DNA of 36,659 nucleotides from positions 1 through 36,659 of the forward strand of contig JADQCC010000275.1 of the NCBI GenBank assembly GCA_016278295.1, written 5' to 3'. Positions 3,244-19,881 of the stretch are shown here, one piece after another. The DNA comes from Roseovarius sp. (GTDB lineage Bacteria; Pseudomonadota; Alphaproteobacteria; Rhodobacterales; Rhodobacteraceae). The notes below the pieces were generated by a model. That model was given only the letters and a program-made list of their open reading frames with translations. It did no database searches and was not told the DNA's origin. Every line of letters begins with the position of its first letter. Position 1 is the first letter of the stretch. The position numbers and the translations under genes are program-made.

Positions 3244-4689
3244 TCAAGCCACACGGATCACGCCCATCATCCCGCCCGCCTGATGCTCGAGGATGTGGCA
3301 ATGAAACATCCAGTCGCCCGGATTGTCGGCGACGAAGGCGATCTCGACGCGGTCCCGCGGGGCCATCAGCACCGTGTCCTGCCATTCGCGATGCGCCGTG
3401 GGCGTCCCGTTGCGGCTGATCACGCGGAAGGAATGGCCGTGCAGGTGGATCGGGTGGTGAAACGCCGTGGCGTTGGTCATGGCGATGACGTGGGGGACAT
3501 CGCGTTCCAGCACCAGCATCGGGTCGAGGATATGTCCTTCGGCCGCGATGCCGTTGACGAACCAGATGCCGCCATCGTGCATCCGGTTTATCATGCCGCC
3601 CATGCCACCGCCGCCATCGCCAAGGCCCATCTCGGACTCGACCATCCCGCCCATCATGCCGCCGGTGAAGGTCACGTCGTGACGGCGGGCACGGGCGATG
3701 TTGGGCTCGGGCAGCGGATTGGGTGCCAGCGCCATGCCCCAGTCGGGTGGCGCATCGCGCAGGGGTGTCTCGGAACAGGCCAGATCGACCACTTCGAAAT
3801 TCCGGTCCGAAAAGAACCGGTCGATGATCGTCACCGTCTCGCCCGGTGCGCCCGTCATGTCGAGTATCAGATCGACCCGCATGGCCGGGCCGATCACCAC
3901 CCATCCGCGCGCATCCTGCGGCGTGTGCGGCGTGACCGGCTGCCCGTCAAGCGCGATGACCTGCGGTGCCAGATCGCCGAAGTCCAGCGCGAAGATGCGG
4001 GCATTGGCGGCGTTGATCAGGCGTAGCCGGATCCGTTCGCCCGCCTGTACTGGCACCGCATCCGGTACGCGCCCATTGATCGTGACCGTGTTGCCCAGCC
4101 GCCCGGCATGGCTCATGTCGTGAAACCCGCCGAAATCCTCGGCGATCCCGGCCTCCTGGGTCAGCCGCCAGTCGTCCAGCACCCATACCATCTCGCGGTC
4201 CACACGCGGCGGGTCCGCCTCCTCGATGATCAGAGGGCCATAGAGCCCGCGCCCGACCTGCTCGAAGCTGCGCTGGTGCGGGTGATACCAGAAGGTGCCG
4301 GCATCCACGGCGTCGAATTCGTAGGTGAAGGTCTCACCGGGCGCGATCGGGGCCTGCGTCAGATGCGGCACGCCGTCCATGACGTTCGGCACACGCAGCC
4401 CGTGCCAGTGCACAGTAGTTTCCTCGACCAGCGCGTTCTCGACGTCGATGCGCAACCGGTCGCCCTGCCGAACCCGGATTTCGGGGCCGGGCACGGTGCC
4501 GCCATAGCACCAGACGTCGCTCTCGCCCCAGGGCTCCGGGACCAGCCTCGCCCGCCCCGGTGCGGCGCGCAGAGTGAAGAAATTCGGACTGCCCGCCCAT
4601 GTGGGACGCATGGAAACTGCCGCACCAGCCGCAGCACTACCGGCCAGAAAGCCGCGGCGCGACAGCGCCGGTGTGAATGTCGATTTCAT
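3244..4689 (-). CDS. multicopper oxidase (Tat-exported)
   Basis: SRRGFLAG Tat motif; HWHG, HPHQ, HPIHLHGHSF, HCHILEHQAGGMM copper sites; Met/Gly-rich insertion (GGMMGGMVESEMGLGDGGGGMGGMINRM). Confidence 0.92.
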   Translation of the reverse strand: MKSTFTPALSRRGFLAGSAAAGAAVSMRPTWAGSPNFFTLRAAPGRARLVPEPWGESDVWCYGGTVPGPEIRVRQGDRLRIDVENALVEETTVHWHGLRVPNVMDGVPHLTQAPIAPGETFTYEFDAVDAGTFWYHPHQRSFEQVGRGLYGPLIIEEADPPRVDREMVWVLDDWRLTQEAGIAEDFGGFHDMSHAGRLGNTVTINGRVPDAVPVQAGERIRLRLINAANARIFALDFGDLAPQVIALDGQPVTPHTPQDARGWVVIGPAMRVDLILDMTGAPGETVTIIDRFFSDRNFEVVDLACSETPLRDAPPDWGMALAPNPLPEPNIARARRHDVTFTGGMMGGMVESEMGLGDGGGGMGGMINRMHDGGIWFVNGIAAEGHILDPMLVLERDVPHVIAMTNATAFHHPIHLHGHSFRVISRNGTPTAHREWQDTVLMAPRDRVEIAFVADNPGDWMFHCHILEHQAGGMMGVIRVA

Positions 4690-4826: not shown

Positions 4827-5174
4827 TCAGATGAGGGGGCGAGGTGGGAACGGATCTGGCGGGGCACGCAGACCATGCGGCACGCTCACGCTCAGGGGCC
4901 GGTCGTGACGGAGGGCCGGCATCATATATTCAAAAGACGCAGCCGCCGTCAGGGCCATCGCGCCGGGTGCAGTGCAATCGAGTTGGCACAACGCCCGGTC
5001 CGCAGCACCTTCGTCATCTGTCGGACAGCCCTGGCAGTCCTCCAGTGCCATCGCGCCGCCATCCATCGCGGCCATGTCCAGCGCCATATCATTGGCGCTC
5101 ATCGCATGCGCGATGTTGCTGACGGAAAAGACCGCGAGAAATGCCAGTAGCAGGATGGATGAAAGGCGGCGCAT
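4827..5174 (-). CDS. secreted Cys/Met-rich small protein in copper cluster
   Basis: Signal peptide MRRLSSILLLAFLAVFSVSNIAHA then CQGCPTDD...CQLDC, C-terminal DPFPPRPLI. Confidence 0.65.
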   Translation of the reverse strand: MRRLSSILLLAFLAVFSVSNIAHAMSANDMALDMAAMDGGAMALEDCQGCPTDDEGAADRALCQLDCTAPGAMALTAAASFEYMMPALRHDRPLSVSVPHGLRAPPDPFPPRPLI

Positions 5175-5269
5175 ACGGAGAAGATAGGCTGAAGAGGGAG
5201 AGCTGTCCAGCCAGGAGCCTGCGACCTTTCGCGCTGCGACAATTGGAACATTGGAGGGGATGACGTGCA

Positions 5270-5440
5270 TCAGCCAGGCTCATTATGTGGAACAACAGCC
5301 CGATCCTCGCGGATCGGGTAATCTGGCCGATGACCGCCTGCGCGGCTTTTGATGAGGTGGCCGAACGTGGTGCGCATTGCCTTCAGTTCGGTGGTCTTTG
5401 CGGGCAGTCCCGTGATCCGCGCGGCATTTCCAATATTCAT
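5270..5440 (-). pseudogene. cueR: degenerate cueR (MerR-family copper regulator) remnant
   Basis: 56-aa ORF MNIGNAARITGLPAKTTELKAMRTTFGHLIKSRAGGHRPDYPIREDRAVVPHNEPG*: CueR N-terminus fused in frame to CueR C-terminus; starts 11 nt past copA stop. Confidence 0.75.
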
Positions 5441-5451
5441 GCACGCACCTT

Positions 5452-7968
<2,517 letters not shown>

Positions 7969-8001: not shown

Positions 8002-8032
8002 CACATAGGGATTCCCGTAACTGGAAGGTCAA
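8002..8032 (-). promoter_or_regulatory. MerR/CueR-type promoter of copA
   Basis: On - strand: TTGACC-[TTCCAGTTACGGGAATCCC, 19 bp]-TATGTG; 19-bp spacer and CCTTCCAGTTAC half-site resemble CueR operators. Confidence 0.6.
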
Positions 8033-8151
8033 GCCGTATCGTTGCTTAAAATTTGGACGAGGGAACGGGAGGAGACCTCAAACGTGGCAGGTTCGTCATA
8101 AAAGGAACCTGTTCTATTGCGCGCTGTGTTGCTGCGCTGCAGAAACGGCTC

Positions 8152-8736
8152 ATGCAGAATCGGCTTACAGTCGTCGTGGTGGAAGAAGATCGTGACCGCG
8201 TGATCGGGATCGTCGATGCTCTCAGCGAGACCGGCGACTGCGATGTCTACGTGATCGGCAACTACACTGGCCTCGCCCGCAAGATCGCCGAACACGCCCC
8301 AGACATCGTGCTGATCGACATCGACAACCCCACCCGCGACATGATGGAGGAACTGACACTGGCCTCTGGTCCGCTGGACCGTCCCGTCGCGATGTTCGTC
8401 TCCGGCGCCGCGGGGGGGCTGGCACAGAAGGCCATCGAGGCGGGCGTGTCCGCCTATGTCGTGGACGGGCTTGCACCCGAGCGGGTCAAGCCGGTTATGA
8501 ACACCGCCATCGCGCGGTTCCGCATGGTCCGGCAGATGCGGCATGAATTGGCCGAAACGCGCCGCGCATTGGAGGAGCGCAAGGTGATCGACCGCGCCAA
8601 GGGCTTGCTGATGAAGGCCAAGGGCATCGACGAGGACGCGGCCTATGCCCTTCTGCGAAAGACGGCGATGGACCAGGGCCGCAAGGTGGCCGACGTGGCC
8701 GAGGCGCTGGTCACCGCGGCGGGCCTTCTGGGATGA
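8152..8736 (+). CDS. nasT: NasT-like ANTAR-domain response regulator / antiterminator
   Basis: Receiver-like N-terminus and C-terminal ANTAR (ALEERKVIDRAKGLLMKAKGIDEDAAYALLRKTAMDQGRKVADVAEAL). Confidence 0.88.
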   Translation: MQNRLTVVVVEEDRDRVIGIVDALSETGDCDVYVIGNYTGLARKIAEHAPDIVLIDIDNPTRDMMEELTLASGPLDRPVAMFVSGAAGGLAQKAIEAGVSAYVVDGLAPERVKPVMNTAIARFRMVRQMRHELAETRRALEERKVIDRAKGLLMKAKGIDEDAAYALLRKTAMDQGRKVADVAEALVTAAGLLG

Positions 8737-9902
8737 GACGCGTCACCATCCCCGTCGCCTACATGCCGCTCGTGGACGCGGCCCCCCTGATCATCGCGCA
8801 GGAACTGGGCTTTGCCGAGGCCGAGGCCATCGGGCTTGACCTCATCGCCGCGCCATCATGGTCGTCGTTGCGCGACATGCTGGGGTTTGGCCGCGTCGAC
8901 GCGGCGCATATGCTCTCGCCCGTGCCCGTGGCCATGCGGTTGGGACTGGGCGGCATGGGCGTCTCGCTTGCGGCGGTCTGCGTGCTGTCGGTCAATGGCG
9001 ACGTGATCGGTATCGGCCGCCCGCTGGAGGAGAAGCTGCGCGCATCTGGATTCGGCTTCGACTTCGAGGACGCCCGCACCGCCGCCACCGCGTTGCAGAA
9101 CGCGCGCCGGGACAAGCTGGTCCTTGGCGTGCCTTTCCCCTTTTCCATGCATGTCGAGCTCCTGCGCTATTGGGCGGAACGCACCGACCTGGGCGTCGAC
9201 AGCATTGAGATCCGCACCGTCCCGCCCCCGCTCATGGCCGAGGCGCTGGAGGCCGGCGATATAGACGCCTTCTGCGTAGGCGAGCCCTGGGGCTCGGTCG
9301 CGGTGGACCGGGGCGTCGGTGCGCTGCTCCTGCCGGGCCGGGCGATCTGGCAGGGCGCCCCGGAAAAGGTGCTGGCCACTCGCAGCGACTGGGCCGAGAC
9401 GGAACCGGACCTGCTGGGCCGACTGATCCGCGCCGTCTGGCAGGCCAGCCGCTGGCTCGCCAAACCTGACAGCCGGATCGCGGCGGCGGAGATCCTGTCG
9501 CGCAAGGGATATCTCGACCTTCCCCCGGAACTGATCGATCGGGCGCTGTCCGGCCGGATGATCCTGTCGGGGCACGGCGAGCAGCGGCAATGCGACGGTT
9601 TCCTGCGCTTTCACGGCGCCGCCGCCACCTTCCCCTGGCGCAGTCAGGCGAAATGGATAGCCCACCGACTGGCAAAGGCCCACGGGCTGGGCCCCGACAC
9701 CGACGCCGCGGCTTCGGTGTTCCGCGCGGATCTCTACCGGCAACACATGACCCAAACCGATGCGGACCTGCCCGGTGCATCGGCAAAACTGGAGGGCGCG
9801 ATTCGCCACCCCACCGCCGTCGCCTCCACCCGTGGAGCGTTGAACCTGCTGCCGGACCGTTTTTTTGATGGTGCAATTTTCGACCCGGATGCGCCGGAAT
9901 GA
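8733..9902 (+). CDS. nasS: NasS-like nitrate/nitrite sensor (NrtA/CmpA family, no signal peptide)
   Basis: YMPLVDAAPLIIAQELGF..., DAAHMLSPVPVAMRLGLG, GEPWGSVAV; ATGA overlap with nasT; no export signal. Confidence 0.82.
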   Translation: MRRVTIPVAYMPLVDAAPLIIAQELGFAEAEAIGLDLIAAPSWSSLRDMLGFGRVDAAHMLSPVPVAMRLGLGGMGVSLAAVCVLSVNGDVIGIGRPLEEKLRASGFGFDFEDARTAATALQNARRDKLVLGVPFPFSMHVELLRYWAERTDLGVDSIEIRTVPPPLMAEALEAGDIDAFCVGEPWGSVAVDRGVGALLLPGRAIWQGAPEKVLATRSDWAETEPDLLGRLIRAVWQASRWLAKPDSRIAAAEILSRKGYLDLPPELIDRALSGRMILSGHGEQRQCDGFLRFHGAAATFPWRSQAKWIAHRLAKAHGLGPDTDAAASVFRADLYRQHMTQTDADLPGASAKLEGAIRHPTAVASTRGALNLLPDRFFDGAIFDPDAPE

Positions 9903-9969
9903 TCGCTTTTTAATCATTCAGAACGCCAGCACCGCCCTTTTCCACTTCTCCGGCGAAAGCTCTGGCCGC

Positions 9970-10118
9970 CTTCGCTGCAAAGCGGCATAAAGATATCCGA
10001 CGGTGCGCAACGGGGTGTGCCGTCCCGAATTCCTCCCAATGACAGGGATAATCTGAGCAAGGTCGCTCGCTTTCCGCCGACGCATGTTGGGGGACAGTGG
10101 ACGGCCTTTTGCATTTTT
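9970..10118 (+). promoter_or_regulatory. candidate ANTAR-target antitermination leader upstream of nrtA
   Basis: 10-bp stem with hexaloop AACGGG (9999-10024), weaker upstream hexaloop AAAGCG (9979-9984); alternative pairing GCCGTCC(10019-10025)/GGACGGC(10099-10105) followed by CTTTTGCATTTTT. Confidence 0.55.
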
Positions 10119-10162
10119 GCCCGGCTCCTCCTCCTCTGGACTTGGGCACATCGAAAGGACAA

Positions 10163-11533
10163 ATGATGAAAAAGTTCCTTCTCGGCCTTGCAGCCTCCAC
10201 CGCCCTTGTCGGCCCGGCGCTGGCCGACATGCTCGACCTTGAAAAGGATGAACTGACCTTCGGTTTCATCAAGCTGACGGACATGGCCCCGCTGGCCGTG
10301 GCCTATGAACAGGGCTATTTTCTCGACGAGGGCTTGTTCGTGACGCTGGAAGCGCAGGCCAACTGGAAAGTGCTGCTGGACGGCGTGATCGACGGACAAC
10401 TGGACGGTGCGCATATGCTGGCCGGCCAGCCGCTGGCCGCCACAATCGGCTTCGGCACAGAGGCGCATATCGTCACGCCGTTTTCCATGGACCTGAACGG
10501 CAACGGCATCACCGTGTCGAACGAGGTCTGGGAAAAGATGCTGCCACATATCCCCAAGATGGATGATGGCCGCCCGCAGCACCCGATTTCGGCCGAGGCG
10601 CTGGCCCCCGTGGTCGCGGAATACAAGGCCGAGGGCAAGCGCTTCAACATGGGCATGGTCTTTCCGGTCTCGACCCATAATTACGAGCTGCGCTACTGGC
10701 TGGCCGCCGGTGGCCTTCATCCGGGCTATTACAGCCCCGAGAACGTGACCGGGCAGATCGGCGCCGATGTGTACCTGTCCGTCACCCCGCCGCCGCAGAT
10801 GCCCGCCACGCTGGAGGCCGACACGATCCACGGCTATTGCGTGGGCGAGCCGTGGAACCAGCAGGCGGTGTTCAAGGGCATCGGCGTGCCGGTCATCACC
10901 GACTACCAGCTGTGGAAGAACAACCCCGAAAAGGTGTTTGGCATCACCGCCAAGTTCGCCGAGGACTATCCCAACACAACGCTGGCCATCACCAAGGCAC
11001 TGATCCGCGCGGCGATGTGGCTGGACGAAAACGACAACGCCAACCGTCCCGAAGCCGTCGAGATCCTCAGCCGCCCGGAATACGTGGGCGCGGATTACGA
11101 CGTGATCGCCAACTCCATGACCGGCTTCTTCGAGTTCGAAAAAGGCGACAAGCGCGACATTCCCGATTTCAACGTCTTCTTCCGCTACAACGCGACGTAC
11201 CCGTTCTATTCCGATGCCGTTTGGTACCTCACCCAGATGCGCCGCTGGGGCCAGATTGCCGAGCCGAAACCTGACAGCTGGTACGACGAGGTCGCCAAAT
11301 CGGTCTACAAGCCCGAGATCTACCTCGAAGCAGCCCGGCTGCTGGTCGATGACGGCCTCGCCAACGAAGAAGATTTCCCTTGGGACAGCGATGGCTACAA
11401 GGCCCCGACCCCGGCGGGCGATATCATCGACGGCATCGCCTATGACGGCAAGGCACCCAACGCCTATCTCGACAGCCTGCCCATTGGGCTTAAGGGCGAG
11501 CAGATCGTCGTGGGCACCAAGGTCGAGGGCTGA
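10163..11533 (+). CDS. nrtA: nitrate ABC transporter substrate-binding protein
   Basis: Start [21 protein letters not shown] signal; [41 protein letters not shown] NrtA/CmpA motifs. Confidence 0.9.
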
Positions 11534-11560
11534 CCAAAGCGCGTATCACCCAGACAGCGC

Positions 11561-11581
11561 GCCCCGGGCGAAGACCGGGGC
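11561..11581. repeat. intergenic GC hairpin between nrtA and nrtB
   Basis: GCCCCGG-GCGAAGA-CCGGGGC, perfect 7-bp arms. Confidence 0.7.
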
Positions 11582-11607
11582 CTCCCCCTCATATCCAGGA
11601 AACGCAG

Positions 11608-12684
11608 ATGACAACCGTCGATCCGAATTTCACAGAGACCGCCGACCGCGAAGCGCGGCGCGCGCGGCTCTTCACCCGCATCAACGCTGCCGACAAATGG
11701 TTCCAGATGCTGGGGCTGAGCTGGGCGACGCCGGTTCTGAAGGCTGCCGCCGGCGACAATCCGAAGGCACAAGCAAAGGAAATCTGGCGCCTGCTGGCAG
11801 TGCCGCTTTTGGCCATCGCGGCCTTCCTGCTGCTCTGGGGCATGCTTGCGCCCAAGGTCGAAACCTCGCTTGGCGTGGTGCCGGGGCCGGCGCAGGTCTG
11901 GGAAGAGGCCGTCAACCTGCACGAGGATGCCCGGGCCAAGGCCGGGAAGCGTGCCGAGTTCCAGGCCAAGGTGGACCAGTTGAACGAACGCCTGGTCGCC
12001 AACGGGCAGGAACCCAAGGAACGCGCCTATACCGGTGCGCCGAGTTATTATCAGCAGATATGGACGTCGATCCAGACGGTCTTTTTCGGCTTCCTTTTGG
12101 CGACGTTGGTGGCCGTGCCACTTGGGATTCTCGCAGGGCTTTCGCCCACGGCCAATGCCGGCCTCAACCCGTTGATCCAGATATTCAAGCCGGTCTCGCC
12201 GCTGGCGTGGCTGCCGATCGTGACGATGATCGTCTCGGCACTTGCGGCGACGGAGGGCGGGCTATTCCCCAAAAGCTTCATCATTTCTGCGGTGACCGTG
12301 ACGTTGTGCTCGCTCTGGCCCACGTTGATCAACACGTCGCTTGGTGTGGCCAGCATCGACAAGGACCTTGTGAATGTCTCGAAGGTGCTGAAGATGAATA
12401 CTTATACCAAGATCACCAAACTGGTGCTGCCCTCGGCCCTGCCGCTGATTTTCACCGGGCTGCGGCTGAGCCTGGGGGTGGGCTGGATGGTGCTGATCGC
12501 GGCTGAAATGCTGGCCCAGAACCCGGGCCTGGGCAAGTTCGTCTGGGACGAGTTCCAGAACGGATCCTCCTCCAGCCTCGCCAAGATCATGGTCGCCGTG
12601 CTGACCATCGGCATCATCGGCTTCCTGCTGGATCGCGTGATGTACGCGCTGCAATCGCTCTTTACCTTCACGAACAACCGGTGA
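11608..12684 (+). CDS. nrtB: nitrate ABC transporter permease
   Basis: 358 aa, multiple TMs, EAA-like region (DLVNVSKVLKMNTYTKITKLVLPSALPLIFTGLRLSLGVGWM). Confidence 0.9.
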   Translation: MTTVDPNFTETADREARRARLFTRINAADKWFQMLGLSWATPVLKAAAGDNPKAQAKEIWRLLAVPLLAIAAFLLLWGMLAPKVETSLGVVPGPAQVWEEAVNLHEDARAKAGKRAEFQAKVDQLNERLVANGQEPKERAYTGAPSYYQQIWTSIQTVFFGFLLATLVAVPLGILAGLSPTANAGLNPLIQIFKPVSPLAWLPIVTMIVSALAATEGGLFPKSFIISAVTVTLCSLWPTLINTSLGVASIDKDLVNVSKVLKMNTYTKITKLVLPSALPLIFTGLRLSLGVGWMVLIAAEMLAQNPGLGKFVWDEFQNGSSSSLAKIMVAVLTIGIIGFLLDRVMYALQSLFTFTNNR

Positions 12685-12727
12685 GCCGCGCTCAAGCAGC
12701 GAAGCGGTAGCGCAAAAGGACAACTTC

Positions 12728-14407
12728 ATGAGCATTCTCAAACTCGACAATGTCAGTCAGAGCTTCGGCACCGGCCTGCACGTCACCCACGTGCTCAAGG
12801 ACATCGACCTCGACGTCAAGGAAGGCGAGTTCCTCGTGCTGCTGGGGTTCTCCGGGACCGGCAAGACGGCCCTGATAAGCCTGATGGCGGGGCTGGAAAG
12901 TCCCACCAAAGGCAGCATCACTTTCAAGGGCGCGCCCGTCACCGGCCCGGGGCCGGAGCGTGGCGTGATCTTTCAAAGCTACTCGCTCATGCCGTGGCTG
13001 ACCGTGAACGGCAATGTCGGCCTGGCGGTGGACGCCGTCTTCCCTGGCCTGTCGCGGGCCGAAAAGGCGGCGAAGGTTGCGCATTACGTGGACATGGTGG
13101 GGCTGTCCCACGCCGCCACGCGCCGCCCGGCAGAGCTTTCGGGTGGCATGCGCCAACGGGTCAATGTCGCCCGTGCCTTGGCGATGAACCCCGAAATGCT
13201 GCTGCTGGACGAGCCGTTGTCGGCGCTCGACGCGCTGACGCGCGCCAATCTTGCCGACGAGATCGAGCATATCTGGCAGGCGGACCAGAAGACCTGCGTA
13301 CTGATCACCAATGACGTGGACGAGGCGATCATCCTTGCCGACCGGATCATTGCGCTGAACCCCGAAGGAACATTGGGCGAAGAGTTCATGGTGACCATTC
13401 CGCGCCCGCGTAACCGGATGGAGATGAACACCGACGACACGTTCAAGCGCCTGCGCGCCGACGTGACCAAGTACCTGATGGATGTCGGGATAGAGGCCAA
13501 AATCGAAGGCACCCGCAACCTGCCGGACGTGACCCCGATCCACGGTCTGCCCGCTGCCATCAAGGACGCGCAGAAGGGCCTGATCGACGATCACTTTCTC
13601 GATTTCAGCCAGTTGCACAAGGTCTATCCCACACCCAAGGGGCCGCTGACGGTGGTCGAGGATTTCGACCTCAAGATCGAGCGGGGAGAGTTCATTTCCC
13701 TGATCGGGCATTCGGGTTGTGGCAAGTCCACCGTACTGACCATGGCCGCAGGGCTGAACGGCATTTCCAAAGGCGCGATCAAGCTGGATGGCCGTCACGT
13801 GGAGGGCGCCGACCCGGAGCGCGCGGTGGTCTTCCAGTCGCCCAACCTGTTTCCGTGGCTGTCAGCGCGCGGGAACTGCGCTATAGGCGTTGACAAGGTC
13901 TATCCCCGCGCGAGCCAGGCCGAACGGCAGGACGTGGTGGAATACTACCTGGAACGTGTCGGCCTTGCGGACGCGATGGACAAGCCCGCCTGCGATATGT
14001 CCAACGGTATGCAGCAACGCGTCGGTATCGCGCGGGCCTTTGCTCTGTCTCCCAAGCTGCTGCTGCTCGACGAGCCCTTCGGGATGCTCGACAGCCTGAC
14101 CCGCTGGGAATTGCAGGAAGTGCTGATGGAAGTCTGGTCGCGTACCAAGGTCACCGCGATCTGCGTCACCCATGATGTGGACGAGGCGATCCTGCTGGCC
14201 GATCGCGTGGTGATGATGACCAACGGCCCGCAGGCTACGATCGGGCGGATCACCAAGGTGGATCTGCCCCGGCCCCGGACCCGCAAGGCCCTGCTCGAGC
14301 ATTCGAATTATTACGCCTACCGGCAGGACGTGCTGGATTTCCTGGAAAAGTACGAACACGGAGCAAAGCCCAAGTCACCGGCCCCCAAGGCCATAGCGGC
14401 GGAGTGA
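12728..14407 (+). CDS. fused double-ATPase nitrate ABC transporter ATP-binding protein
   Basis: Two ABC domains in one 559-aa ORF: GFSGTGKTA...LSGGMRQRV...LLLDEPLSALD...TNDVDEA and GHSGCGKST...MSNGMQQRV...LLLDEPFGMLD...THDVDEA. Confidence 0.92.
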   Translation: MSILKLDNVSQSFGTGLHVTHVLKDIDLDVKEGEFLVLLGFSGTGKTALISLMAGLESPTKGSITFKGAPVTGPGPERGVIFQSYSLMPWLTVNGNVGLAVDAVFPGLSRAEKAAKVAHYVDMVGLSHAATRRPAELSGGMRQRVNVARALAMNPEMLLLDEPLSALDALTRANLADEIEHIWQADQKTCVLITNDVDEAIILADRIIALNPEGTLGEEFMVTIPRPRNRMEMNTDDTFKRLRADVTKYLMDVGIEAKIEGTRNLPDVTPIHGLPAAIKDAQKGLIDDHFLDFSQLHKVYPTPKGPLTVVEDFDLKIERGEFISLIGHSGCGKSTVLTMAAGLNGISKGAIKLDGRHVEGADPERAVVFQSPNLFPWLSARGNCAIGVDKVYPRASQAERQDVVEYYLERVGLADAMDKPACDMSNGMQQRVGIARAFALSPKLLLLDEPFGMLDSLTRWELQEVLMEVWSRTKVTAICVTHDVDEAILLADRVVMMTNGPQATIGRITKVDLPRPRTRKALLEHSNYYAYRQDVLDFLEKYEHGAKPKSPAPKAIAAE

Positions 14408-14411
14408 ACGC

Positions 14412-16844
14412 ATGAGACAGAAACTGGTTATCATCGGGGCCGGCATGGCCTCGGGCCGGGTAATCGAGCACCTGGTCGAGCAGAGCCCGGACGCCTTTGA
14501 CATAACGCTTTTCAACGCTGAGCCGCGGGGCAACTACAACCGGATCATGCTGTCGCCGGTGCTGTCGGGCGACAAAACCTACGACGAGATCGTGACCCAT
14601 GACGCGGACTGGTACGAGACCCACGGCGTGACATGCCGGTTCGGCGAGCACGTGGTCGGCATCGACCGCGACCGCAAGATGGTCGAAGGCCAGAACAGCA
14701 GTGTGCCGTATGACAAGCTGATCATCGCGACCGGATCGGCCCCCTTTATCATCCCGGTCGAGGGCAAGGGCCTGCCGGGGGTCATCACCTACCGCGATCT
14801 GGACGATACCAACGCGATGATCGAGGCCGCGCGGCATGGCGGCAAGGCGGTGGTGATCGGGGGCGGTTTGCTGGGTCTCGAGGCCGCGGCGGGACTGGCC
14901 GAACGCGGCATGGAGGTGACCGTGCTGCACCTGATGGGCCACCTGATGGAGCGGCAGTTGGACGAAGCTGCCGGATACCTGTTGCGGCGGGATATTGAAA
15001 AGCGCGGGATCACCATTCGCACCCGGGCCTCGACCGCGGCCATCCTGGGCAAGGACCGTGTGGAGGGCGTGCTGCTGGAGGACAATACCGGGTTTGAAGC
15101 CGATCTTGTCGTCATGGCCGTCGGTATCCGGCCAGAGACGCGGCTGGCCAGCGATGCCGGCCTGGAGGTCGCGCGCGGGATCGAGGTGAACGCGCAGATG
15201 CAGAGCCTGAGTGACCCGGACATTTACGCCGTCGGGGAATGCGTGGAGTTCGGCGGGCATCTCTTTGGCCTTGTCGCGCCACTTTACGACCAGGCAAAGG
15301 TGCTGGCGCGGTCGCTGCTGGATCAGCCCGACGCCTTTGTCGTCAAGGATATCGCCACCAAGCTGAAGGTTACCGGGTGCGACCTGTTTAGCGCCGGTGA
15401 CTTTGCCGAGGCGGAGGGCCGCGAGGACATCGTCTTTCGCGACCCGGCGCGGGGCATCTACAAGCGTCTGGTGATTGAGGATGACCGGCTGATCGGCGCG
15501 GTCATGTACGGAGACACCGCGGACGGGAACTGGTTCTTCGGGCTAATCAAGGACGGCACCGAGATCGGCGAGATGCGCGAGACGCTCATATTCGGCCCGG
15601 CCTACCAGGGAGGGTCTGCCACGGACCCTCTCTCAGCCGTTGCAGCATTGTCGCGTGATGCGGAGATTTGCGGCTGCAACGGCATTTGCAAGGGCACCAT
15701 CGTGGACGCCATCGCGGGCGGGGCGACCGACCTCGGCGCGGTGAGGGCGCAGACCAAGGCCAGCGCCTCCTGCGGGACCTGCGCGGGGCTGGTGGAACAA
15801 TTGCTGCAGGTGACGCTGGGCGGTGATTTCCAGATGCCCACGGAGCAGCCGATCTGCGGGTGCTGCGACCTCAGCCACGAGGATGTGCGCCGCCTGATCA
15901 AGAGCCAGGAGCTGAAGAGCCAGGAGGCGATCTGGCAGGAACTGGGGTGGAAGACCCGAAACGGTTGTCACATCTGCCGTCCGGCGGTGAATTTCTACCT
16001 TCTGGCAGACTGGCCGCTGGAATACCGCGACGATCCGCAAAGCCGCTTTGTCAACGAGCGCAAGCACGCCAACATCCAGAAGGACGGCACGTTCAGTGTC
16101 GTGCCCCGGATGTGGGGCGGCGTCACCAACGCGGCCGAGCTGCGCGCCATCGCCGACGCGGCCGAGAAATACGACGTGCCCACCGTCAAGGTCACGGGCG
16201 GCCAGCGCATCGACCTGCTGGGCGTCAAGGGCGAAGACCTGCCCGCCATCTGGAACGACCTGAACAAGGCCGGGCTGGTTTCGGGACACGCCTATTCCAA
16301 GGGGCTGCGCACGGTGAAGACCTGTGTCGGGACGGATCACTGCCGCTTTGGCACGCAGGACAGCACCGGGCTGGGTGTGAAGCTGGAACAGATCCTGTGG
16401 GGGGCCTGGACGCCGCACAAGGTAAAGCTGGCAGTGTCGGGCTGCCCGCGCAACTGCGCCGAGGCCACCTGCAAGGACGTTGGTATCGTCTGTGTCGATA
16501 GCGGATACCAGGTGGGTGTCGCTGGGGCTGCGGGCATGGACGTGAAGGAAACCGAACGCCTTGTCGATGTGGCGACCGAGGCCGAGGCCATCGAGTGGAT
16601 CACCGCCTTTGTCCAGCTTTACCGCGAGAACGCCAAGTATCTCGACCGGCCTTACAAGTGGGTCGCCAAGGTCGGGCTGGACTGGGTCAAGGAGACGCTG
16701 GCCAGCGCGGAGGAGCGCGCGCGGCTGGTGGAGGCGTTCGAGCTGTCGCAGTCGATCTATCGCAAGGATCCCTGGGCCGAGCATGCGAAACAGGCCGAGC
16801 GGTTCCAGCCGGTGGCCGACCTGACACTGGAGGCCGCTGAGTAA
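14412..16844 (+). CDS. nirB: assimilatory NAD(P)H nitrite reductase large subunit
   Basis: FAD/NAD domains, two BFD-like [2Fe-2S] regions (CGCNGICKG...CGTCAG; CGCCDLS...CHICRP), siroheme motif SGCPRNCAEATCKDVG. Confidence 0.95.
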   Translation: MRQKLVIIGAGMASGRVIEHLVEQSPDAFDITLFNAEPRGNYNRIMLSPVLSGDKTYDEIVTHDADWYETHGVTCRFGEHVVGIDRDRKMVEGQNSSVPYDKLIIATGSAPFIIPVEGKGLPGVITYRDLDDTNAMIEAARHGGKAVVIGGGLLGLEAAAGLAERGMEVTVLHLMGHLMERQLDEAAGYLLRRDIEKRGITIRTRASTAAILGKDRVEGVLLEDNTGFEADLVVMAVGIRPETRLASDAGLEVARGIEVNAQMQSLSDPDIYAVGECVEFGGHLFGLVAPLYDQAKVLARSLLDQPDAFVVKDIATKLKVTGCDLFSAGDFAEAEGREDIVFRDPARGIYKRLVIEDDRLIGAVMYGDTADGNWFFGLIKDGTEIGEMRETLIFGPAYQGGSATDPLSAVAALSRDAEICGCNGICKGTIVDAIAGGATDLGAVRAQTKASASCGTCAGLVEQLLQVTLGGDFQMPTEQPICGCCDLSHEDVRRLIKSQELKSQEAIWQELGWKTRNGCHICRPAVNFYLLADWPLEYRDDPQSRFVNERKHANIQKDGTFSVVPRMWGGVTNAAELRAIADAAEKYDVPTVKVTGGQRIDLLGVKGEDLPAIWNDLNKAGLVSGHAYSKGLRTVKTCVGTDHCRFGTQDSTGLGVKLEQILWGAWTPHKVKLAVSGCPRNCAEATCKDVGIVCVDSGYQVGVAGAAGMDVKETERLVDVATEAEAIEWITAFVQLYRENAKYLDRPYKWVAKVGLDWVKETLASAEERARLVEAFELSQSIYRKDPWAEHAKQAERFQPVADLTLEAAE

Positions 16845-16867
16845 TGCAGCGCGCCCGGAACTCAGGC

Positions 16868-16884
16868 CCCGGGTCGAGCCCGGG
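16868..16884. repeat. intergenic GC hairpin between nirB and nirD
   Basis: CCCGGG-TCGAG-CCCGGG. Confidence 0.65.
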
Positions 16885-16921
16885 ACGCGGGCCGCAAAGC
16901 TGTCACCGGAAAGGACAGAAC

Positions 16922-17251
16922 ATGAGCTGGATCGATATCTGCGCCATTGACGACATTCCCCTGCGCGGGGCGCGCAAGCTGAAGACCGAACTGGGCTGTG
17001 TCGCCGTTTTCCGGACGGCCGAGAACGAGGTATTTGCCGCGTCTAACACCTGTCCGCACAAGGGCGGGCCGCTGTCCGAGGGGATCGTGCATGGTCAATC
17101 CGTGACCTGCCCGCTGCATAATTGGGTGTTCGATCTCAATACAGGCCAGGCGCAGGGAGAGGACGGGCAGATCGATACCTTTCCGCTGCGGGTCGAGGCG
17201 GGGCGCGTCCTGATAGACGGGACGGGCCTTTCGGGCCGGAGTGCTGCGTGA
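16922..17251 (+). CDS. nirD: nitrite reductase small subunit (Rieske-like)
   Basis: Start MSWIDICAIDDIP; CPHKGGPL...CPLHNWVF. Confidence 0.92.
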   Translation: MSWIDICAIDDIPLRGARKLKTELGCVAVFRTAENEVFAASNTCPHKGGPLSEGIVHGQSVTCPLHNWVFDLNTGQAQGEDGQIDTFPLRVEAGRVLIDGTGLSGRSAA

Positions 17252-19881
17252 TGGACGGGGCGGAGCAGCCCTGGACCCGCTCCACCTGCCCTTATTGCGG
17301 GGTGGGGTGCGGCGTACTGTTGCGCGCAGACGGCTTGGGCGGCCTGGAGGTGCAGGGCGATGCGGCCCATCCGGCGAACCTGGGCCGGTTGTGCTCCAAG
17401 GGATCGGCCCTGGCCGAGACGGTCGGGCTGGATCACCGGCTGCTGGCCCCGCGCGTGGGTGGAGAGGATACAAGCTGGGACGCGGCGCTGGACCTGGTGG
17501 CGGCCCGCTATTCCGACACCATCGCGCGGCACGGGCCGGACAGCGTGGCCTTCTACGTCTCGGGGCAACTGCTGACCGAGGATTACTACGTTGCCAACAA
17601 GCTGATGAAGGGGTTCATCGGGTCAGCCAATATCGACACCAATTCCCGGCTCTGCATGGCTTCGTCCGTGGCCGGGCACAAGCGGGCGTTCGGGACAGAC
17701 ACGGTCCCGGGCACCTACGAGGATATCGACGAGGCCGATCTGGTCGTACTGGTCGGCTCGAACCTCGCATGGTGTCATCCGGTGCTGTACCAGCGGCTTT
17801 TGGCGGCGCGGAAGAAGTGCGGCACGCGGATCATCGTGATCGACCCGCGCCGCACGGCCAGTTGCGACGGTGCAGACATGCATCTCGCGTTGGAGCCGGG
17901 ATCGGACGTGGCGCTGTTCAACCGGCTTCTGGCCGAGATCGGGAAAGGTGGCGCGGTGGACTCTGCCTTCCTGGCCCATACGAAGGGGTTCGACGCGGCG
18001 CTGGAGGCCGCAGCGAGCGATGACGCCTCCGTCACCGGCCTGAGCGAGGCGCAGATCACCGCGTTCTGCCATCTCTGGATGCGCACGGAGCGTGTCGTGA
18101 CAATTTATTCGCAAGGGGTGAACCAGTCGATCACTGGCTCGGACAAGGTCAACGCGATCCTGAATTGCCACCTGGCCACGGGGCGGATCGGCAAGCCGGG
18201 CTGCGGGCCGTTGTCGGTGACCGGGCAACCCAACGCCATGGGCGGGCGAGAGGTGGGCGGGCTGGCCAACATGCTGGCCTGCCACCTCGACCTGGAAAAC
18301 CCGGATCATCGCGGTGCCGTGCGCAGTTTCTGGGACGCACCACACATGCCCGACGCGCCGGGGCTGAAGGCGGTGGACATGTTCCGCGCGGTGGGCGACG
18401 GGCGGATCAAGGCGCTGTGGATCATCCACACCAATCCTGCCGTGTCGATGCCCGAGGCCGATGCGGTGCGGGACGCGATCGCGGGGTGTGACTTCACCGT
18501 GGTCAGCGACATCACCGCCGAGACGGATACCGCGCGGCTGGCGGACGTGTTGCTGCCTGCTTGTGCGTGGGCCGAGAAGGAAGGCACGGTCACGAATTCC
18601 GACCGCACCATCAGCCGTCAGCGCAGCGTCCTGCCCGCGCCGGGAGAGACGCGCCCGGACTGGGATATCCTCGCGGAGGTCGGGCAGCGCATGGGCTTCG
18701 TCCGCGCCTTCGACTATGGCAGCGTGTCCGAGATTTTTCGGGAATATGCCACCCTTTCGGGCATTGCCGGGCAGTTTGGGCGGGATTTCGACATCTCGGC
18801 GCTATCGGGCATTGATGATCGGGCCTATGATGCGCTGGAGCCGCAACGCTGGCCGATCACCGCGACGCGCAAGGGTGGACGGTTCTTTGGCGACGGGAGG
18901 TTCTTTCACGGCGAGGGCAAGGCGCGGTTGCTGCCGGTGACGTGGCGGCCACCAGCCGCACGGACCGACCCGCGCTTTCCCTTCCGTCTCAATACCGGGC
19001 GAACGCGGGATCAGTGGCACACCATGACGCGCACCGCGCTGAGCCCGCGCTTGTCGGCGCATCTGGCCGAGCCGTTCCTGGAAATTCATCCCGCGGACGC
19101 GACACGGCTGGAGATCGACACCGCCGATCTCGTCACGGTTACCAGCCCCACGGGCCGGGCCATCCTGCGGGCGCGGGTCACCGACGCGGTTACACCTGGC
19201 CAAGTCTTTGCGCCCATGCACTGGACGGGCGAGACCGCGCCCTCGGGCCGGATCGACGCGCTTGTCGCTGCCGTCACCGATCCCGTTTCGGGACAGCCTG
19301 AGAGCAAGGCGGGCGTGGTGGCCGTGGCACGCCTTGACGCGGCGTGGTACGGGTTCGCCGTTTCGGCCAAACCGATGGCCTTGCGGGCCGATTACTGGGC
19401 GCTGGCGCGGACGCAGGCCGGTTATCGCGCCGAATTGGCGGGGTGTGCGGAGGTCGCGGACTGGGAAGTCGAGGCGCGCAGGCTTTTCGCCGCGCCGGAT
19501 GCCGCGGCCGCCATGATCACGGATGTGCATCGCGGCATCGCGCGGGTTGTCCTGCATGAGAAGGGGGTGATCGCCGGGGTGCTTTTCATTGCGCCCGGGC
19601 CGGTTGTCGTGACGCGCGATTACCTTGCCACGCTGCCCGGGACGGAGGGGCCCGATGCGCTGACGGGGCGGCTGCCGATGGATGTGCCCAATCCCGGTCC
19701 TGTTCTGTGTTCGTGTTTCGGGATAGGCGTGAACACGATCGTCGAGGCGGTGGAAACCAAGGGTGCGGTGAGCGTCGAGGCGATAGGCGAGTTGTTGGGG
19801 GCAGGCACGAATTGCGGCTCCTGCCGTCCCGAAATTGCGGAGTTGCTGCAAGGTGTGACCACGCGCGCGGCGGCGGAATGA
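17251..19881 (+). CDS. nasA: assimilatory nitrate reductase catalytic subunit with C-terminal BFD-like domain
   Basis: STCPYCGVGCGVL Fe4S4 motif, molybdopterin oxidoreductase domains, C-terminal CSCFGIGVNTI...CGSCRPEIAELL. Confidence 0.93.
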   Translation: MDGAEQPWTRSTCPYCGVGCGVLLRADGLGGLEVQGDAAHPANLGRLCSKGSALAETVGLDHRLLAPRVGGEDTSWDAALDLVAARYSDTIARHGPDSVAFYVSGQLLTEDYYVANKLMKGFIGSANIDTNSRLCMASSVAGHKRAFGTDTVPGTYEDIDEADLVVLVGSNLAWCHPVLYQRLLAARKKCGTRIIVIDPRRTASCDGADMHLALEPGSDVALFNRLLAEIGKGGAVDSAFLAHTKGFDAALEAAASDDASVTGLSEAQITAFCHLWMRTERVVTIYSQGVNQSITGSDKVNAILNCHLATGRIGKPGCGPLSVTGQPNAMGGREVGGLANMLACHLDLENPDHRGAVRSFWDAPHMPDAPGLKAVDMFRAVGDGRIKALWIIHTNPAVSMPEADAVRDAIAGCDFTVVSDITAETDTARLADVLLPACAWAEKEGTVTNSDRTISRQRSVLPAPGETRPDWDILAEVGQRMGFVRAFDYGSVSEIFREYATLSGIAGQFGRDFDISALSGIDDRAYDALEPQRWPITATRKGGRFFGDGRFFHGEGKARLLPVTWRPPAARTDPRFPFRLNTGRTRDQWHTMTRTALSPRLSAHLAEPFLEIHPADATRLEIDTADLVTVTSPTGRAILRARVTDAVTPGQVFAPMHWTGETAPSGRIDALVAAVTDPVSGQPESKAGVVAVARLDAAWYGFAVSAKPMALRADYWALARTQAGYRAELAGCAEVADWEVEARRLFAAPDAAAAMITDVHRGIARVVLHEKGVIAGVLFIAPGPVVVTRDYLATLPGTEGPDALTGRLPMDVPNPGPVLCSCFGIGVNTIVEAVETKGAVSVEAIGELLGAGTNCGSCRPEIAELLQGVTTRAAAE

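Follow-up and report, generated by a model that had tools for sequence, protein, structure and literature searches.

In the genome of a marine Roseovarius, the gene for the copper-sensing regulator that adjoins the copper pump gene has been reduced to a 56-codon stub, best read from its sequence as a cueR pseudogene, and an intact CueR is encoded on another contig, in a second copper operon that has kept its regulator and lost its pump. The reading that we favour, with a probability of about 0.77, is that the stub is dead, that the two operons have decayed in complementary fashion, and that the surviving CueR probably controls the surviving copA in trans. The window, that is, the whole stretch of 36,659 nucleotides analysed here, is contig C205 of a draft genome of 3.18 Mb (325 contigs, 88.8% complete). 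Its first 8 kb form a minus-strand copper island with copA, the cueR slot, a Cys-containing secreted ORF, a multicopper oxidase, and BNR-like, DUF411 and thioredoxin-like proteins. The features discussed below are, in window coordinates:

8002..8032 (-), CueR-type copA promoter, TTGACC-N19-TATGTG with operator half-site ACCTTCCAGT; relatives with an intact cueR share the layout
5452..7968 (-), intact copA, Cu(I)-exporting P1B-type ATPase, 838 aa from the ATG at 7968 (Pfam and TIGR01511)
5270..5440 (-), cueR remnant, read as a pseudogene; 56 codons plus stop, ATG to TGA, with residues 14-45 matching TIGR02044
5393..5401 (-), deletion junction, sole remaining copy of an imperfect 9-bp direct repeat, GC(C/G)AAGA(C/T)C, from alignment with relatives
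5342..5344 (-), CGC, encoding Arg where the first Cu(I) ligand should be (relatives have Cys111, E. coli C112)
5318..5320 (-), TAC, encoding Tyr where the second Cu(I) ligand should be (relatives have Cys119, E. coli C120)
4827..5270 (-), Cys-containing ORF with a signal-peptide-like segment, downstream of the stub; its first ATG overlaps the stub's stop (TGATG)
3244..4689 (-), multicopper oxidase (CueO/CopA-type, TAT signal) with Pfam Cu-oxidase domains, syntenic in Roseovarius sp. 217 and Roseovarius sp. A-2

The TGATG stop-start overlap (5268-5272) is common to these same two relatives, both of the window's own genus, and translational coupling across it is possible. Divergent from the copper island, the next 12 kb or so (8053-19881) hold genes of nitrate-assimilation type: an ANTAR regulator, an NMT1-like binding protein, an ABC transporter, nitrite reductase and a molybdopterin oxidoreductase.

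The remnant of cueR

The stub begins 11 bp past the copA stop. When the orthologous region is aligned, the same post-copA slot holds a full-length cueR in four Roseovarius relatives (sp. 217, sp. A-2, G049 and G015) and in one Loktanella, with lengths of 134-137 aa (among the Roseovarius relatives 134, except for 137 in G015). Compared with these, the window lacks exactly 234 bp, or 78 codons, as one in-frame piece: set against the 134-aa relatives, it keeps codons 1-16 and 95-134 and has lost codons 17-94 (134 - 78 = 56 exactly), and the ORF reads MNIGNAARITGLPAKT/TELKAMRTTFGHLIKSRAGGHRPDYPIREDRAVVPHNEPG, the boundary between the two being the deletion junction. In the relatives, the missing 234 bp are flanked by the repeat GC(C/G)AAGA(C/T)C, whose left copy is GCCAAGACC (codons 14-16) and whose right copy is GCGAAGATC or GCCAAGATT (codons 92-94), and of which the window retains one copy. 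Direct-repeat ends of this kind would be typical of slippage, and we infer that a slippage-type deletion between the short repeats took codons 17-94.

What remains cannot, judging by its sequence, act as CueR. The NCBIfam CueR model TIGR02044 recognises the tail only (residues 14-45 on model positions 93-124, E = 0.0014), with a score of 18.7 bits vs a cut-off of 147.4, and a Pfam search of the stub found nothing, MerR included. Its 16 N-terminal residues extend no further than the point where the recognition region starts; with codons 17-94 gone, the N-terminal winged-helix DNA-binding domain of a CueR is no longer complete, its remainder having been lost together with most of the dimer helix. 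The two Cu(I)-ligand cysteines of the C-terminal loop are also absent. In E. coli CueR the Cu(I) ligands are C112 and C120 (PMC9004249), with which Cys111 and Cys119 of the relatives align (PDB 1q05); the equivalent residues of the remnant, 33 and 41, are Arg and Tyr (C111R, C119Y). Both cysteines are present in 82 of 82 intact homologues, although the pattern used to gather that set itself contains both. By position and by sequence the stub is homologous to intact cueR, and it carries a disabling lesion, as is expected of a pseudogene.

These alignments bear out much of what the earlier note had proposed from the window: a CueR-like start joined in frame to a CueR C-terminus directly 3' of copA, an in-frame loss of 70-80 residues (78 were found) that took the DNA-binding and dimer core, and the replacement of C112 and C120 by Arg and Tyr, now confirmed against both the relatives and the E. 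coli structure. The comparison with full-length CueR from related genomes that it had called for is the one given above.

The codons that remain have also changed in an unusual way. Seven of the stub's first 47 residues occur in none of 82 distinct intact CueRs, which themselves carry a mean of 0.63 such private residues and a maximum of 4, and the stub deviates at 5 of the 21 positions conserved in at least 95%. Selection on the protein has therefore been relaxed. At the nucleotide level, the ratio of nonsynonymous to synonymous private changes is 8:5 in the stub vs 25:62 in this genome's copA (Fisher p = 0.024), while a wider comparison set gives 8:2 vs 5:15 (p = 0.006); these are private differences among living sequences only, and the 47-codon test rests on small counts. 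The excess of nonsynonymous changes was absent from every relative compared. Within the limits of such small counts, the remaining codons show the relaxed selection of a pseudogene, and the neighbouring pump is constrained where the stub is not. After the deletion the remaining codons, those of both Cu(I) ligands included, would have drifted, in what we take to be the order of events.

The pump, its promoter and the operon on C52

The window's copA is intact, as the earlier note had stated: it encodes two HMA domains, E1-E2_ATPase and Hydrolase (Pfam) and scores 594 bits with TIGR01511. Its product is the only full-length close match genome-wide, two other long matches being 34% and 39% identical. 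The predicted site upstream is of CueR type, with a 19-bp spacer from -35 to -10 and an ACCTTCC-type operator; a GTG at 8004 falls within the -10 element. The right half-site, GGGAATCCC, is poor, and erosion of the operator was considered and rejected, since the same half-site occurs in G049, where cueR is intact; the window operator matches that of G049 and is no more degenerate.

A search of the genome for a second cueR, which the earlier note had also proposed, found an intact one on contig C52 (C52:3407-3811, minus strand), encoding a CueR of 134 aa with both cysteines that passes TIGR02044 (149.3 bits vs the cut-off of 147.4). In this operon (L039:3407-4036) a CueR-type promoter is followed by a 48-codon ORF, MTGTRQIRGFPDGVTHADVTLADASARIETSGPVPLRDIAAARPAAIG, which is a copA stub, and then by cueR. 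The orthologous place in the relative G033 is flanked by the same sequence (81% identity) and has the same promoter, then a full copA of about 2.5 kb, then cueR; flanks, promoter and cueR are thus alike in the two operons, but copA is full in G033 and a 48-codon stub on C52. The first 86 bases of the C52 stub align with the start of the G033 copA, in an alignment where short gaps of uncertain placement together remove 57 bases, and the remainder is too short to place confidently.

The assembly as it stands holds one CueR-type CopA, in the window, and one CueR, on C52. A genome-wide scan for the CueR-type box gave three sites: the window copA promoter, the C52 cueR promoter, and a match on C81 that lies within a ribonucleotide reductase CDS and was set aside as due to chance. 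A copA tail on C261 was likewise rejected as a second CueR-type copA, being 56% identical to the window CopA and of another subtype with a short LSPMIAAAAMSLSSVSV tail. It belongs to a C-terminal piece of a P1B-type ATPase (L034:1012-1605) that lies in one frame behind the N-terminus of an IS110-like transposase and adjoins a CzcD-like cation efflux gene, and looks like an IS-truncated gene. Nine further tails, apparently of the same subtype (judged in G023 from the upstream stretch only), occur in seven Roseovarius genomes with no adjoining cueR. Because the assembly is incomplete (88.8%), another cueR or copA may be missing from it.

With one operon lacking its regulator and the other its pump, the one intact regulator probably controls the surviving pump at a distance. 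The redundancy provided by the second operon would have made the loss of cueR tolerable, because the window copA has kept its CueR-type promoter unchanged, and the CueR of C52 can probably bind to it; pump from one operon and regulator from the other would then give a copA that is induced by Cu(I) in trans. Control in trans is likely, given the anatomy of promoter and regulator. Of the three options that the earlier note had offered for copA, namely constitutive expression, another MerR protein, or a residual role for the mini-protein, it is another MerR protein that fits best, in the form of an intact CueR behind a CueR-type promoter on C52. Cross-control is not to be taken for granted, since expression in Alteromonas carrying two merR-copA units pointed to separate control, with each copA under its own merR (PMC8478169).

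Alternative readings

A more ambitious version of the same idea is that two separately inherited copA-cueR operons decayed in complementary fashion, forcing cross-operon control by a diverged CueR, and that in-frame collapse was favoured in both operons by the preservation of the next gene's translation. We regard this fuller account as rather doubtful.

Another reading, in our view unlikely, is that cueR is dead and copA lies outside CueR control altogether, being constitutive, weakly expressed from an unactivated promoter with a 19-bp spacer, or governed by a different metal-sensing MerR. The absence of a regulator gene beside copA would agree with this, as would the presence of other MerR proteins with C-terminal Cys pairs on C41 and C180. 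However, the 19-bp promoter keeps the layout and half-sites of relatives that bear cueR, the genome has an intact CueR behind a CueR-type promoter of its own, and the C52 protein, the sole one of these MerR proteins run against TIGR02044, passes the model.

The stub could instead be a translated micropeptide with a role, for example a leader whose translation is coupled through TGATG to that of the downstream ORF overlapping it, in which case in-frame deletions would be favoured. Its frame has stayed open from ATG to TGA despite deletion and substitutions, the stop-start overlap is retained as in Roseovarius sp. 217 and A-2, and the copA stub on C52 likewise ends in an open frame before cueR. 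Yet residues at invariant positions have been lost and the changes in the stub are mostly nonsynonymous, a deletion is in frame once in three by chance alone, and the start assigned to the downstream ORF at the overlap is only a putative one, so that we consider this very unlikely. The least probable alternative is an artefact of assembly or binning, in which the deletion would be spurious or C205 and C52 would not belong to the same genome: the draft is indeed fragmented (325 contigs, 88.8% complete, 1.4% contamination), but a misassembled deletion cannot yield base substitutions scattered across the stub, G015 is among the closest relatives both for C52 and for the window outside its copper genes (81-82% identity), and tetranucleotide usage is similar in the two contigs (r = 0.97, a value little above that between different Roseovarius genomes).

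Distribution and comparison with known systems

Across 60 genomes of the genus, a full CueR follows 69 of the 84 copA tails found; the other 15 comprise ten of the other subtype (C261 and the nine mentioned above), four of CueR type without any stub, and the window. Stubs of cueR were sought beside the other copA genes that have no adjacent full CueR, and none was found in Roseovarius, which leaves the window as the sole case. Beyond the genus, L045 (MAG 'Biocath_Alpha_31', labelled Erythrobacter) carries the sister of the window copA in the tree, followed by only the first 13, decayed, cueR codons and then by unrelated sequence (L045:2242-2320); its genome has CueR-like proteins elsewhere, the best with 52% identity. 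L045 resembles the window in having a collapsed cueR after copA, but its lesion differs, because only 13 codons remain and the downstream sequence is different. In this copA lineage, cueR may have been lost once or twice.

No report of a comparable cueR pseudogene beside copA was found in the literature at the level of titles and abstracts. What is new here is that two copper operons of a single genome have decayed in complementary fashion, the pump being kept in one and the regulator in the other. The case is instructive as an illustration of known processes (deletion between repeats, and pseudogene decay after redundancy) and not a new kind of system. It constitutes a natural experiment on whether a CueR can take charge of a copA that belongs to a different copper operon. 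The authors of the Alteromonas study knew of no reports on the regulation of such tandem copies (PMC8478169). Complementary loss predicts that the C52 CueR controls the window copA, which makes for a specific and testable case, and for annotation it serves as a warning that a copA may be regulated even when no regulator gene lies next to it.

The order of genes in the window is that of the operons of Roseovarius sp. 217 and A-2 (copA, cueR slot, Cys-containing secreted ORF, multicopper oxidase, BNR-like protein, DUF411 protein), where, unlike in the window, cueR is intact. Set against CueR itself (TIGR02044; E. coli, PDB 1q05), the first 16 residues and last 40 codons of the stub align gaplessly to Roseovarius CueR but, unlike CueR, the stub is without 78 residues, a loss that takes in almost all of the winged helix and the greater part of the dimer helix, and without both of the residues that bind copper.
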